From: Roseovarius carneus
GTDB lineage: Bacteria > Pseudomonadota > Alphaproteobacteria > Rhodobacterales > Rhodobacteraceae
Reading direction: 5' to 3'
Length of the DNA stretch: 64,000 nt
Assembly: GCF_020141465.1 (NCBI RefSeq)
Contig: NZ_JAHSPD010000001.1
Location: 1,346,374 to 1,410,373 of the forward strand
A model generated the notes under the pieces. That model was given only the letters and a program-made list of their open reading frames with translations. It ran no database searches and was not told the origin of the DNA. Below, piece by piece: positions 15,050-20,912 of this stretch; within the stretch, counting starts at the first letter, position 1, and the number at the start of each line of letters is the position of its first letter. The position numbers were made by a program, and so were the translations under genes.

Positions 15050-15943
15050 ATGAGCGAGCATATGAAGGGCATATTGATCACGGCGCTGGGCGTTATGCTC
15101 ATCGTGCCGGATTCGCTTTTCGTGCGGGTGATCGACGCAGGGCCGGCGACGATCACCTTCTGGCGCAGCTTCATGGCGGGGGGGCTGATCCTCCTCGGCT
15201 TGCTGATTTTTCAGGGTGTCTCGGGGTTTCGCGCGGTGTTGCGCACGGGGCGACCGGGGCTGATCTATACGTTGTTGATCGGCTTGACCGCGCCGGGCTT
15301 TGTGATGGCGATCACGCTGACCTCGGTGGCGAATGTCGTGTTTATCTTCGCCTCAATCCCGATTTTCGCCAGCATTTTCAGCCGGATATTTCTGGGCGAG
15401 CCAATAAGCCGGCGGCTGGTCGTGACCATGGCCGCTGTGATGGTGGGCCTTGCCATCATCGCCTATGGCAGTCACGCATCGGCCATTTCATCCTGGCAGG
15501 GTGATCTCATCGCCCTCATCGTGTCGATCAATTTCGCAGGCGCGCTGACGGCGGTGCGCATGGTCAAGGCGACCTCAATGATTCCGGCCATTCCGGTGGC
15601 GTATCTGGGCGCGGCTTTCGTGATGTTCTTCTTCGCAGAACCGCTCAGCGTGATGCCCGGCCAATGGCACCTCGTGATCCCGCATGGCACGCTCATTGCC
15701 GTCTCCACATGCCTTCTGACACTGGGCCCGCGCTATATCAGCTCGGCGGAAGTGTCGCTTTTGATCTTGCTGGAATCGGTGCTGGCACCGCTTCTGGTCT
15801 GGGCCGTGATCGGCGAGAATCCGGGCGCATGGGCTTTTGTCGGCGGAGCCGTGGTGATCACGGCGCTCTTTGCATCGAACCTCATGGCGCTCCGGGCAGG
15901 CGCTAGAAGTCGATCTCGACCCCCGGCAGGCGCAGCGCCTTGA
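15050..15943 (+). CDS. DMT (EamA) family transporter
   Basis: This 297-residue membrane protein has ten predicted helices in two EamA repeats of about 130 residues each. The N-terminal repeat begins MSEHMKGILITALGVMLIVPDSLF, and the second ends with the typical SLLILLESVLAPLLVW segment. It is likely an exporter of metabolites or amino acids; the substrate is unknown. The C-terminal tail (ARSRSRPPAG) is hydrophilic and is encoded in the 41 bp that overlap the 3' end of convergent mipZ. Confidence 0.88.
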   Translation: MSEHMKGILITALGVMLIVPDSLFVRVIDAGPATITFWRSFMAGGLILLGLLIFQGVSGFRAVLRTGRPGLIYTLLIGLTAPGFVMAITLTSVANVVFIFASIPIFASIFSRIFLGEPISRRLVVTMAAVMVGLAIIAYGSHASAISSWQGDLIALIVSINFAGALTAVRMVKATSMIPAIPVAYLGAAFVMFFFAEPLSVMPGQWHLVIPHGTLIAVSTCLLTLGPRYISSAEVSLLILLESVLAPLLVWAVIGENPGAWAFVGGAVVITALFASNLMALRAGARSRSRPPAGAAP

Positions 15944-16712
15944 TCAGGTCGCGCAATTCCTGACGCGCGGCAACGTTCGAGATGTTGAGCTGTTTCACAC
16001 CCACATCCTTGAGGTCCAGCAATGTCAGCCCGCGCGGGAACAGCTCGCGGAAGATCACCCGCTCGTTAAAGCCCGGCCCGGTGCGAAACCCAATCCGCTT
16101 GGCGAGGTTATCCAGCGCCTCTCCCATCTTCTTCTTGTTCACCATGTTCTGCGCGCCAAGACGGTTGCGCAAAACGATCCAGTCGATGGGTTTGAGACCG
16201 GCCTGCGCACGCAGCTGCCGTGCGTTCCAGACCATTTCGGAATAGACGGACGGCTTGAGGATCTTCTGCCCATCCGCGTCGATATGGGCCAGAAGGTCAA
16301 AATCAATGAAGCTGTCATTGAGGGGCGTCACCAACGTGTCGGCAAGGCTATGGGCCACTTGACTGAGCCGCGTATGGGAGCCGGGGCAATCAATCACGAT
16401 GAAATCGCTATCGGGTTCCAGCGCCGCAACAGCCTCGCTCAGGCGGCGGTCATAGACGTTTTCGCCGGGGCTGAGGCTGGCGTGATCCACCTCGGGGAGG
16501 TCATGATAATGCGGGCTGGGCAGGGTGAGACCGGACTTCGCCACGAAGGATTTACGGTTCTCGGCGTAGCGCCCGAAGGTTTTCTGGCGCAGATCCAGAT
16601 CCAGCGCGCTGACCGTGTGACCCATGCGCGCAAGCGCCGTGGCCACATGCATCGACACGGTCGATTTGCCCGCACCGCCTTTTTCGTTCCCCACGACAAT
16701 AATATGCGCCAT
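15903..16712 (-). CDS. mipZ: Division-plane positioning ATPase MipZ
   Basis: This ParA/MinD-superfamily ATPase has 269 residues. The deviant Walker A is KGGAGKST close to the N-terminus (MAHIIVVGNEKGGAGKST), and the Walker B-like FIVIDCPGSHT follows. The size and the DSFIDFDLLAHID region match alphaproteobacterial MipZ, which forms a gradient from the pole-bound ParB complex and keeps FtsZ assembly at midcell. The start at 16712 is the conserved one. Its 3' end overlaps the DMT gene by 41 bp in convergent orientation. Confidence 0.92.
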   Translation of the reverse strand: MAHIIVVGNEKGGAGKSTVSMHVATALARMGHTVSALDLDLRQKTFGRYAENRKSFVAKSGLTLPSPHYHDLPEVDHASLSPGENVYDRRLSEAVAALEPDSDFIVIDCPGSHTRLSQVAHSLADTLVTPLNDSFIDFDLLAHIDADGQKILKPSVYSEMVWNARQLRAQAGLKPIDWIVLRNRLGAQNMVNKKKMGEALDNLAKRIGFRTGPGFNERVIFRELFPRGLTLLDLKDVGVKQLNISNVAARQELRDLIKALRLPGVEIDF

Positions 16713-16842
16713 GCGCCGTTCCCTTGCCTTTGCGCTACGTGCCGAGCGCTGCGCGGGTAGACTATACTGCACTGCGGCAAGAGGAAAGACGCGTGATTTG
16801 AGTGGGGGAGGAGCGCGGCAGTATGCACAAGGGGTTAATCCG

Positions 16843-17442
16843 TCAGGTGTTCGAAATTTGAGCCTTCACCAAGCCTGCAATATAGTTGCTCATTTCGGAA
16901 AGATCTAAATCTCCGCCCGCCCAAGCGTCGTCAGCCGCGCGTAACGCATGGTAATATGGTTCGCGGTTTGCCCGTATTCTGTCGGGTACAATGTTATCCC
17001 CAGGCAGCAGTCGACCAAGTTTGGTGCACAAAACATAATAGCAAATTGCTCGTGAAGTTCGACCATTGCCTTCAATGAACGGATGTATCCAGTTCAGTCG
17101 CCACAAGCTGTAGGCGGCAAGAGTGTAGGCATCAGCGTAATCCCAGTTTTCGTAAAGAAATGAGAAGAACCTATCTACCAGTTCTGGGACCTCCACGCAG
17201 GTTGGCGGGCGATGGCCTGAATTGCCGATGTATATAGGCTCTTGTCGATAGCGGCCTGCCAACTGCGAAATTCCAGAGACCGCCGAGTGATTAAGTGCAT
17301 ATAAAGTGTACTTATCTGCCGCGTGTGGACCGAGGCGGAGGCCTAGTTGGATGAGATTCACCAGTAAATCATACTGTCGTGAGAGGTTTCTCTCCTGAAG
17401 GGAGTTATATAAGTCCGGATCTTGACTTTCGATTATAAGCAT
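16843..17442 (-). CDS. Fic domain protein (predicted AMP-transferase)
   Basis: This 199-residue protein is almost entirely a Fic domain. The catalytic loop HPFIEGNGRTSR (H120 to R131) is complete, with catalytic His, the acidic metal ligand and the phosphate-binding GNGR. The flap region, GRYRQEPIYIGNSGHRPP at about 63-80, precedes it. Such enzymes usually transfer AMP from ATP to Ser/Thr/Tyr hydroxyls; some are toxins. No inhibitory S/TxxxE(G/N) helix is obvious within it, so it may rely on the 67-residue partner encoded upstream. The ATG directly follows the T-tract of a terminator, leaving no unstructured Shine-Dalgarno site. Base composition is AT-richer than its surroundings, suggesting acquisition. 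Confidence 0.9.
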   Translation of the reverse strand: MLIIESQDPDLYNSLQERNLSRQYDLLVNLIQLGLRLGPHAADKYTLYALNHSAVSGISQLAGRYRQEPIYIGNSGHRPPTCVEVPELVDRFFSFLYENWDYADAYTLAAYSLWRLNWIHPFIEGNGRTSRAICYYVLCTKLGRLLPGDNIVPDRIRANREPYYHALRAADDAWAGGDLDLSEMSNYIAGLVKAQISNT

Positions 17443-17470
17443 AAAAAAACGCTCGCCTTACAGCGAGCGC
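17443..17470 (-). terminator. Rho-independent terminator between the small gene and fic
   Basis: On the minus strand GCGCTCGC-TGTAAG-GCGAGCG is followed by seven T residues. The stem is 7 perfect GC-rich pairs plus a G-U pair. The last T (17443) touches the fic ATG (17442-17440), and the small gene's stop lies 6 nt before the stem. Confidence 0.88.
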
Positions 17471-17476
17471 TCCAAG

Positions 17477-17680
17477 TTATATAAGAATTTGTGTGGCAGC
17501 GCGTTGAGCGCTTTGCCTTGTAACCGTTGAGTTCTCAGACGAATTCCCGAAAATGAAACTTGCCCTTTGCTTGGCCAGCTGATCTTCCGAAAGTTCCACA
17601 TCTGGAAGACTATCAAGAAGGCTTTGCAATTCGGGATCGTTCACTGGTTCGCCCAACAAGGATTTCCTTGGGATGGACAT
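17477..17680 (-). CDS. Small putative Fic partner/antitoxin
   Basis: This 67-residue protein lies upstream of fic in the same direction. It has a leucine-rich acidic helix (about residues 15-38) and a stretch ASFIFGNSSEN at 40-50. VbhA-type Fic antitoxins carry an S/TxxxE(G/N) motif whose Glu blocks the ATP site. Here the nearest matches are S41-xxx-G45-N46, with Gly in place of Glu, and E49-N50 with Gly four residues before. It is therefore an antitoxin candidate by context and pattern, not by an exact motif. AGAGGA precedes the ATG at good spacing. The gene shares the AT-rich composition of fic. Confidence 0.65.
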   Translation of the reverse strand: MSIPRKSLLGEPVNDPELQSLLDSLPDVELSEDQLAKQRASFIFGNSSENSTVTRQSAQRAATQILI

Positions 17681-17780
17681 GATTTCAATCCTCTCTCATG
17701 TGAGGCTCAGAGATAGACTTCTAACACTTGCAACTCAACAGTATTCAGTCAACTGAAAGAAATCGTGAATCTGATTTGCG

Positions 17781-18923
17781 TCACCCCTTCATCGAATCCC
17801 AGAAGGTCTTCACCGACGAAAAGAAGCTTTTGCTTTCTGGGTTGTTATCCTCGGAGAGCGCTTCAAACTCGCGCAGAAGCTCCTTTTGCTTCGATGTCAG
17901 GTTCACTGGGGTTTCCACCGCCAATTCGATGAACATATCGCCCGCGCCGCCGCCGCGCAGGGCTGGCATGCCCTTGCTGCGCAGACGCATCTGGCGGCCT
18001 GATTGGCTGCCTGCGGGAATTTTCACCCGGCTGCGGCCCCCGTCGATCGTGGGCACTTCGATGTCACCGCCCAATGCTGCCGCCGTCACCGAGACCGGGA
18101 CGGTGCAGAAAAGATTGATCTCCTCACGCTCAAAGAGGGCGTGTTTGCTCACCTCAATGAAGATGTAGAGATCACCGGGAGGCCCGCCGCGCATGCCCGC
18201 CTCGCCCTCGCCCGAGAGGCGGATACGGGTGCCCGTCTCCACGCCTGCGGGGATGTTGACGCTCAGCGCGCGGTCCTTTTGGACGCGGCCTTGGCCACCG
18301 CAGGATTTACACGGGTTCTGAATGATCTGGCCAAGGCCACCGCATGTGGGGCAGGTCCGCTCGACCGTGAAGAACCCTTGCTGCGCGCGCACCTTGCCCA
18401 TGCCCGAACAGGTGGGGCAGGTCGACGGCTCCGCACCGCCCTCGGCGCCTGAGCCCTCGCAAGAGGTGCAGACCACGGATGTCGGCACGTTGATCGTCTT
18501 TTGCAGGCCGGTGAAGGCTTCTTCCAGCGTGACGCGCATGTTGTAGCGCAGGTCCGATCCGCGCGCCGCGCGTCCGCGTCCGCCGCCACCGCGCGCGCCC
18601 ATGAAATCGCCAAAAAGGTCATCGAACACATCCGAGAACGCGCTTGCAAAGTCGCCTTGGCCTTGGCCGCCCCCTTGGCGCGGTCCGCCCATACCGCCTT
18701 CAAAAGCGGCGTGGCCAAAGCGGTCATAGGCCGCCTTTTTATCGGCGTCCTTCAGGACCTCATACGCTTCGCCGGCTTCCTTGAACTGGGTCTCGGCGTT
18801 GGGATTGTCTTTGTTGCTGTCGGGGTGCAGCGCCTTTGCCTTCTGGCGATAGGCTTTCTTTATCTCGTCAGCCGAGGCGCCACGGGCAATGCCCAGCACC
18901 TCGTAATAATCACGTTTGGCCAT
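17781..18923 (-). CDS. dnaJ: Chaperone protein DnaJ
   Basis: This is a full-length Hsp40 of 380 residues. It has an N-terminal J-domain with HPD at 33-35, a Gly-rich linker, four zinc-finger repeats ([32 protein letters not shown]) and the C-terminal substrate-binding domains. It stimulates the ATPase of DnaK and delivers unfolded clients. It follows dnaK by 75 bp on the same strand, with a possible processing stem-loop in the gap. Confidence 0.97.
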
Positions 18924-18950
18924 GCGAGAGCTCCTTTGATTGAACCGGAA

Positions 18951-18975
18951 GGGGCCGAGCGCTGGGCCCGGCCCC
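18951..18975 (-). other. Stem-loop in the dnaK-dnaJ intercistronic gap
   Basis: GGGGCC (18951-18956) pairs with GGCCCC (18970-18975) between the two chaperone genes. There is no U-tract, so processing or differential stability is more likely than termination. This is inference only. Confidence 0.4.
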
Positions 18976-18998
18976 CCCCTCAGGGTTCGTTGAGGCGC

Positions 18999-20912
18999 TT
19001 AGCCGCGCTTGCTGTCGTCGAGGTCTTCGAAGTCGGCATCGACGATATCATCGTCGCCCGGCCCTCCGGCCTCATCGGCGGCTTTCGGTGCGTCATCGGC
19101 TTCTTCTGCGCTGGCCTTATAGATCGCCTCGCCCAGCTTCATCGCGGCCTCGGTGACGTTCTGGATGCCGGATTTGATCTTGGACGTATTGTCCGTCTCC
19201 AGCTCATCCTTCAGCGCGACAATCGCCAGCTCAATCGCCTCAATGGTGGTCGGGTCCACCTTGTCGGCGTGCTCTTCCATCGACTTCTCGGTCGAGTTGA
19301 TCAGGCTTTCGGCCTGGTTTTTAGCCTCGACCAGCTCGCGGCGTTCCTTATCGGCCTCCGCATTCTCTTCGGCGTCGCGCACCATCTTCTCGATATCTTC
19401 GTCCGACAGACCGCCCGAGGCTTGGATGGTGATCTTTTGCTCTTTGTTCGTGCCCTTGTCCTTGGCCTGAACCGAGACGATGCCGTTGGCGTCGATGTCG
19501 AATGTCACTTCGATCTGCGGCATGCCGCGTGGCGCGGGCGGGATGCTTTCAAGATTGAACTGACCCAGCATCTTGTTATCTGCCGCCATTTCCCGCTCGC
19601 CCTGGAAGACGCGGATCGTGACCGCGTTCTGATTGTCCTCGGCGGTCGAGAAGACCTGAGATTTGTTCGTCGGGATGGTCGTGTTGCGATCGATCAGACG
19701 GGTGAAGACCCCGCCCAGCGTCTCAATCCCGAGCGACAGGGGGGTGACGTCCAGAAGGACCACATCCTTGACGTCACCTTGCAGGACGCCCGCCTGAATG
19801 GCGGCCCCCATGGCGACGACTTCGTCGGGGTTCACGCCCTTATGAGGCTCCTTGCCGAAGAACTTCGTCACTTCCTCGATCACGCGGGGCATACGGGTCA
19901 TACCGCCGACCAGAACAACCTCGTCAATCTCATTGGCCGACATGCCAGCATCTTTGAGCGCGGCCTGACAGGGCTTGATCGACGCTTTGATCAGGTCCGA
20001 CACGAGGCTTTCCAGCTTCGCACGGGTCAGTTTCATGACCATGTGCAGAGGCGATCCGTCCGACCCCATCGAGATGAAGGGCTGGTTGATCTCGGTCTGG
20101 CTGGACGAGCTGAGCTCGATCTTGGCCTTTTCCGCCGCTTCTTTCAGGCGTTGCAGCGCCATCTTGTCCTTGGTCAGGTCAACGCCATGCTCTTTCTTGA
20201 ACTCATCCGCGAGGTAGGTGACGATCCGCATGTCGAAGTCTTCACCGCCAAGGAACGTGTCGCCATTGGTGGATTTCACCTCAAAGAGGCCATCGTCAAT
20301 CTCAAGGATGGTCACGTCGAACGTGCCGCCGCCAAGGTCATAGACCGCAATCGTGTGCGTCTCTTGCTTGTCGAGACCGTAGGCCAGTGCGGCCGCTGTC
20401 GGCTCGTTGATGATGCGCAGAACCTCAAGGCCCGCGATCTTGCCTGCGTCCTTGGTCGCCTGACGCTGGGCATCGTTGAAATAGGCGGGGACGGTGATGA
20501 CGGCTTGCGTCACCTCTTCGCCGAGATAGCTCTCGGCGGTTTCTTTCATCTTACCCAAGATAAACGCGGAAATCTGGCTGGGCGAATATTTCTCGCCGCG
20601 CGCCTCTACCCATGCGTCGCCATTGCCGCCGTCGATGACGTTGAACGGCATGTTTTTCTTGTCTTTGGCCAGATCCGCATCATCCGCGCGGCGACCGATC
20701 AGGCGCTTGACGCCGAAGACGGTGTTTTCGGGGTTGGTCACGGCCTGCCGCTTGGCGGGCTGACCGACGAGGCGCTCATTCTCGGTGAAGGCCACGATGG
20801 AGGGCGTTGTGCGCGCGCCTTCCGAATTCTCAATCACGCGGGCAGCACCACCATCCATGATGGCGATGCAGCTGTTGGTGGTTCCGAGGTCGATACCAAT
20901 GACTTTGGACAT
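18999..20912 (-). CDS. dnaK: Molecular chaperone DnaK (Hsp70)
   Basis: This 637-residue Hsp70 begins [17 protein letters not shown]. The nucleotide-binding domain includes the phosphate loops GIDLGTTNS and [14 protein letters not shown], followed by the linker [14 protein letters not shown], the beta substrate-binding domain, the helical lid and an acidic tail ([14 protein letters not shown]). It binds exposed hydrophobic segments and works with DnaJ, encoded next, and GrpE, which is not in this window. An RpoH-type promoter is visible about 110 nt upstream of the start codon. Confidence 0.98.

Follow-up and report, generated by a model that had tools for sequence, protein, structure and literature searches.

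A terminator-like hairpin abutting the start codon of a fic gene in Roseovarius carneus and its possible second role as a ribosome-site spacer

The window, a 64,000-nt stretch of the Roseovarius carneus genome, carries on its minus strand a fic gene encoding 199 aa (16843..17442), preceded by a small partner gene of 67 aa (17477..17680), an open reading frame with the motif SFIFGN and a candidate Fic antitoxin. The whole junction between the two is contiguous on that strand. The partner's stop codon, TAA (17479-17477), is followed by CTT and then by GGAG (17470..17473), a Shine-Dalgarno sequence at the 5' foot of a hairpin (17450..17469) that would form the stem of a terminator and, as proposed below, a spacer. 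The 7-bp GC core of this hairpin consists of the arms CGCTCGC (17469-17463) and GCGAGCG (17456-17450), closed by the 6-nt loop TGTAAG (17462-17457). A T7 tract (17443..17449) comes next and abuts the ATG of fic (17442-17440). These coordinates confirm the layout given in an earlier note on this DNA (stop at 17477, 7-bp GC stem, 6-nt loop, T7 and abutting ATG), as well as its remark that the sole GGAG lies beyond the stem, since just T7 stands between stem and ATG in the window. An exact 11-nt direct repeat, AGTTATATAAG (plus strand), occurs at 17403-17413 and 17475-17485, its sole two copies in the window; one copy lies over the partner's stop codon and the other inside fic codons.

The Fic protein matched PF02661 in Pfam (E 5.2e-16), and its translation contains the complete class I active-site motif HxFx(D/E)GNGRxxR as HPFIEGNGRTSR. 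Since a TAA lies in the fic frame within the hairpin loop, five codons separating it from the ATG, and since ATG, GTG, or TTG occupies the aligned start place in 80/81 homologues (at least 50% identity; script tolerance 12 nt), the start codon is well supported and a wrong start was rejected. Fic protein conservation begins at the aligned start, and the homologue alignment offered no better start downstream. A conserved downstream start codon, which the earlier note had named as a finding that would refute its reading, was thus not encountered.

A small upstream open reading frame with S[FW]x[FY]GN was present in 84/84 non-redundant fic loci, the motif itself having been used to find the frame. 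This co-occurrence supports an association of the partner with Fic, and the regulatory reading developed below needs no more than that; the two may or may not form a toxin-antitoxin pair. The locus resembles the class I pairs VbhTA, EcFicTA, and Fic-1/AntF, as described in the available portions of two papers (PMC5033356, PMC13327609), in having a small gene directly upstream of fic and the complete Fic motif. It is unlike them in that the partner matches no antitoxin family and carries Gly in place of the inhibitory Glu. According to the same portions of those papers, [S/T]xxxE[G/N] is typical of known Fic antitoxins, whereas the partner has SxxxGN. With the position placed by motif rather than by structure, Gly was found there in 84/84 partners and Glu in 0/84. 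In AntF, the change E28G is reported to have abolished inhibition (available portion of PMC13327609). Since Gly replaces the inhibitory Glu, inhibition may work otherwise or the partner may have another role. Searched against Pfam (E up to 1) and against NCBIfam and PADLOC (E up to 10), the window partner matched nothing. With 13 partner sequences, Pfam and NCBIfam matches were to unrelated families, each from 1/13 members, and included no FicA family, while a search of the PDB returned two unrelated chains (E 0.14 and 0.31). The partner is a conserved protein-coding gene, unlike the repeat-RNA antitoxin of type III (toxIN) systems.

The earlier note called the hairpin a strong terminator, and this was borne out. 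A GC-rich hairpin is followed immediately by a T-run, and the 37-nt stretch that contains it has a computed fold of -18.4 kcal/mol (z -4.76; 0/200 shuffles as good). Its terminator score was 41.9. A terminator scan of 15500-19500 returned 8 terminator-like sites vs. 4.2 expected; the fic hairpin had by far the longest stem, 12 pairs including weak outer ones, and the other seven had 5-6 pairs. In the minimum-energy fold, GGAG is weakly paired with four U's of the tract. These features are also what would be expected of a plain partial terminator setting the partner:Fic ratio, as in toxIN (available portion of PMC5772629). On that account, which we regard as possible but doubtful, the purines at the foot would be no more than the terminator's A-tract side, and translation of fic would be weak, with no Shine-Dalgarno sequence involved. 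The pairing of the purine run with the U-tract in the window fold favors it, as does the mostly paired state of the run in other loci; evidence against it is presented below. A sigma-70-like promoter scan of 15500-19500 found none on the minus strand, both promoter-like sites being on the opposite strand. A promoter between hairpin and fic was accordingly rejected for that promoter type, and with it a promoter of the same type inside 17443-17480, another possible refuter in the earlier note. An Rfam search of 17300-17800 gave three matches, none toxin-antitoxin by name and all under gathering scores, and a known RNA family was rejected on these grounds.

We then considered the hairpin across fic loci. 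A genome scan kept 80 loci, to which virus, plasmid, and other genome-search loci were added, and 22 loci with a match starting after Fic residue 5 were dropped (hand count; L100 among them). Removal of 10 near-copies from the 94 loci with an alignable fic start left 84, and a hairpin plus T-run was sought in -80..+6 of fic. A terminator-like hairpin was present in 27/84 loci, vs. a mean of 3.48 and a maximum of 7 in 50 dinucleotide-shuffle rounds; in other windows of the same loci, hairpin plus T-run occurred in 165/5300 (3.1%). Fold z was < -2 in 25/27 hairpin loci vs. 7/168 stretches downstream of the fic start. Within a 464-kb sample of the bacterium's own genome, with genes called by a crude ORF picker rather than real annotation, 7/171 close co-directional gene pairs passed the same lenient hairpin scan, and in just two did the stem end within 20 nt of the start: fic and one pair with a poor T-run. 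Chance occurrence was rejected by the shuffles, the tiled windows, and the gene-pair gaps. Excluding L113 and L093, with a weak stem, left a set of 25 stronger hairpins, 22 of which had a positive terminator score (L010, L066, and L063 were negative but kept).

Hairpin arm sequences differ between clades, and two-sided compensatory changes were seen in all three clades compared (2/7, 1/9, and 1/10 pairs; clades hand-picked and hand-anchored), with one broken stem pair, in L026. On a tree of 77 Fic proteins, built after omission of 4 loci with short frames and of 3 rows with less than 50% identity, the hairpin needed 12 changes vs. 21.3 for shuffled labels; it is therefore clustered yet was gained or lost many times. 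The idea that homologues keep the terminator at this place consequently held in part: 27/84 have it and 57/84 do not, including the nearest relative, L003 (69% identity), whose gap is just 6 nt and whose TTG start has a linear site (AGGT by motif list) 8 nt ahead of it. Since just 6/32 hairpin-free loci with a gap of at least 25 nt had z < -2, hairpin and T-run mostly come together. In four loci (L115, L017, L071, and L117) the hairpin that precedes fic (z -2.4 to -4.8) lacks a T-run; these hairpins may be spacers that have lost the terminator function, or decayed forms.

In the window, 3-7 nt lie between the partner's stop codon and the stem. In the 25 fic loci with stronger hairpins, the distance from the stop to the core stem is -12 to 21 nt (median 11, all <27), and 4-21 nt in 24/25. 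The exception is L059, where the partner's stop codon falls inside the hairpin. Own-genome terminators behind ORFs, located with the crude gene picker, had a median distance of 28 nt, with 9/22 under 27. The partner-fic gap is 30-59 nt in 26/27 hairpin loci and 19 nt in L059; in so short a gap, the stem is bound to be close to the stop. Such closeness matters in light of Li et al. (available portion of PMC4824070), who in E. coli observed that a stop codon 5 bp before a terminator took its efficiency from about 90% to <10%, through following ribosomes. Efficiency was full beyond 27-30 nt from the stop codon and was 0.12 or 0.8, depending on sequence, at 17-18 nt. The fic locus is similar in having a terminator a few nt past a stop codon; the system of Li et al. 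was synthetic, combining RFP and GFP with tR2 and an insulated RBS downstream. In that work, ribosome repression did not reach terminators inside the first 100 bp of a coding region, an escape range for an E. coli RFP reporter against which the partner's 67 codons are to be set, and halved translation hardly changed the repression (PMC4824070). Because the stem in the window lies at a distance where the E. coli terminator became almost inactive, the earlier claim that most transcripts end before fic is uncertain. If ribosome repression holds at this locus, the terminator would report whether the partner is translated rather than how much. This step, drawn by analogy, is the one we trust least.

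The placement of the Shine-Dalgarno sequence bears on what else the hairpin might do. In the window, the pairing energy of CTTGGAG with the anti-Shine-Dalgarno is -5.2 kcal/mol. Of the 20 hairpins ending within 14 nt of the start, a site (dG <= -4 kcal/mol) lay 0-4 nt before the GC core in 17, with no good site in L004, L049, and L059; the null, from 250 positions further upstream in the same loci, was 19%. No favorable site at least 3 nt from the start was found in the stem-to-start interval of these 20 hairpins, where there was room for one; L026 has GAGG 1 nt from the ATG. Terminator-like hairpins elsewhere in the fetched sequences served as controls. At every quality cut, the foot site was rarer in controls than in fic hairpins: 31/160 vs. 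17/20, 8/51 vs. 15/18, 6/46 vs. 14/17 (terminator score of at least 10), and 4/31 vs. 11/14. An earlier motif count agreed (fic 17/20; controls 32/163, which included the L100 fic hairpin). These counts are not independent, since the loci are related; the site was present in 9/12 groups by our own grouping on the Fic tree. The difference at a terminator score of at least 10 argues against a plain terminator whose purines are simply the A-tract side. So do the five hairpins >14 nt from the start, which leave room for a site on their other side: there, the site follows the hairpin in all five, being strong (-6.4 to -10.0 kcal/mol) in L043, L069, and L079 and weak (-3.1 kcal/mol) in L009 and L063; in L069 a further site precedes the stem. 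However, no good site was found in 30/54 hairpin-free relatives, which suggests that fic may need no Shine-Dalgarno sequence and favors the plain terminator.

In the window, the linear spacing of 27 nt between GGAG and ATG becomes 7 nt once the GC core is looped out, so that a Shine-Dalgarno sequence, a hairpin, and an AUG at usable looped-out spacing are all present, as in a split ribosome-binding site. Looped-out spacing across loci was 7-16 nt (mean 9.9; n = 18, dG <= -2.5 kcal/mol), with 6/18 at 12-16 nt. Linear sites of hairpin-free relatives, found in 24/54, had a mean spacing of 8.1 nt, and the looped-out spacing is thus usual to slightly long. Fine tuning was unsupported: the stem-to-start and site-to-stem distances rise together (rho 0.50, permutation P 0.99), without the mutual compensation that would make exact spacing visibly tuned. 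Foot placement in 17/20 hairpins together with this spacing suggests that the hairpin is a spacer, and a hairpin that puts the Shine-Dalgarno sequence out of reach, as the earlier note implied, was not supported. Simple separation of the ribosome site from the start codon is probably the wrong picture.

Predicted folds of -60..+30 had the site mostly paired, with a mean unpaired fraction of 0.29 (0.31 in the window) and a median opening cost of 4.1 kcal/mol (4.5 kcal/mol in the window). Such pairing is what would be expected if the hairpin separated or hid the ribosome site, leaving read-through RNA barely translated and placing a double lock on Fic. Yet the computed gain from anti-Shine-Dalgarno pairing exceeded the opening cost in 12/18 loci, the window included, and was no greater than it in 6/18; moreover, a good foot site kept so much more often than in control terminators would be odd if it were unused. 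We therefore consider a double lock unlikely. Since the opening cost is lower than the gain in those 12 loci and the GC core was predicted to be still folded once the site was opened in 16/18, it is plausible that ribosomes do initiate across the hairpin, if weakly. Translational coupling, in which a ribosome ending on the partner would restart on fic, held by GGAG, with the hairpin just a terminator, would suit the short partner-fic gaps, and in 8/18 loci no more than 7 nt separate the end of the site from the stop. Nevertheless, in the 18 loci the site tracks the stem (0-4 nt) and not the stop codon (4-19 nt), which makes coupling very improbable in our estimation.

The reading toward which we lean, with modest conviction, is that of a translation-sensitive attenuator whose hairpin is also part of a split ribosome-binding site. 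In such a device, the GC stem and T7 would act as an intrinsic terminator, and just part of the transcripts would reach fic. With the stem 3-7 nt past the stop codon, a ribosome finishing the partner could block the terminator, which would tie fic transcription to partner translation, so that fic would be transcribed mainly while the partner is translated. In read-through RNA, the folded GC core would remove 20 nt of the 27-nt gap and bring GGAG to 7 nt from the AUG, and a ribosome could start on fic across the folded hairpin. Pairing of GGAG with the U's would lower initiation without abolishing it. The fuller proposal, that one hairpin is terminator, sensor of partner translation, and folding-dependent ribosome-site spacer at once, with Fic made mainly from partner-first RNAs, is tentative, and we would sooner expect some part of it to fail than all of it to stand. 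Where an operon encodes a harmful protein together with its partner, the partner has to stay ahead, and this 31-nt element (17473 to 17443) could do so at both RNA synthesis and translation.

Split ribosome-binding sites are known from T4 genes 38 and 25, where a hairpin shortens the distance between Shine-Dalgarno and AUG from 22 to 5 nt and from 27 to 11 nt, respectively (available portion of PMC3014915, which cites Nivinskas 1999 and Malys 2009). The fic junction is similar in that a hairpin would join a distant Shine-Dalgarno sequence to its AUG. It differs in that the portion of the paper in question nowhere calls the T4 hairpins terminators, and in that the T4 split sites were proven by mutation whereas the fic split site is proposed from sequence comparison. 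On the terminator side, the available portions of papers on toxIN (PMC5772629) and AbiF (PMC12373285) describe a terminator between inhibitor and toxin gene, with co-transcription and read-through giving the toxin RNA, as would apply here. In those systems the inhibitor is an RNA, and the AbiF toxin start has a named RBS, AGGTGA (PMC12373285); the fic partner is a small protein, a putative inhibitor, and the fic terminator, unlike theirs, abuts the start codon and adjoins a stop codon. The available portion of the E. coli Fic paper (PMC5033356) contains no mention of "terminator". At the level of titles and abstract openings, the open-access matches listed included no terminator in a Fic pair and no terminator doubling as a ribosome-site spacer. 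Each half of the proposed device therefore has precedents, in T4 genes 38 and 25 and in toxIN, AbiF, and ribosome-repressed terminators, while their combination in one hairpin is unreported among the matches listed. By the title of a 2025 NAR paper (gkaf125), the type II operon HicAB reportedly has an intrinsic terminator, and would to that extent be similar, its toxin and antitoxin being proteins; any claim to novelty among type II systems hinges on this paper. If the fuller proposal is true, such hairpins would make up a new class of compact operon switches that arose or vanished repeatedly within one Fic module family. Pipelines that take terminators as operon boundaries would then wrongly split such pairs, and similar devices could be sought through terminators that immediately precede a start codon. 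Some related bacteria do have the same layout with different hairpin sequences.

The fic module itself looks acquired. Downstream of it lies mipZ (Pfam) and upstream a gene that we take to be dnaJ, named by eye from its translation. Among 295 family genomes sampled, fic was found in 9, own genome included (E 1e-30), and fic, partner, and dnaJ were not found within about 1.5 kb of mipZ in 8/8 same-genus loci fetched; rarity in the family and absence beside mipZ both point to acquisition, while the lack of fic module or dnaJ at those mipZ loci indicates that the 15903-18923 neighborhood is itself rearranged. Phage records gave no match at E 1e-20. Three plasmid records matched at E 1e-30, and the one examined, L117, had no T-run hairpin. 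A homologue search in the orders of four other genomes had little yield, with one new start-bearing locus, L116. Among distant or start-less Fic relatives, the partner motif was present in 15/22 loci and, by eye, hairpin plus T-run just in L100. Short fic frames (22-108 aa) occur in L046, L050, L059, and L063, though the protein match extends further. In L100, a member of the close family (58% identity), the fic match does not start until residue 61, and the frame that opens with the ATG is 65 codons long; despite this short frame, L100 retains site, hairpin, T-run, and ATG.
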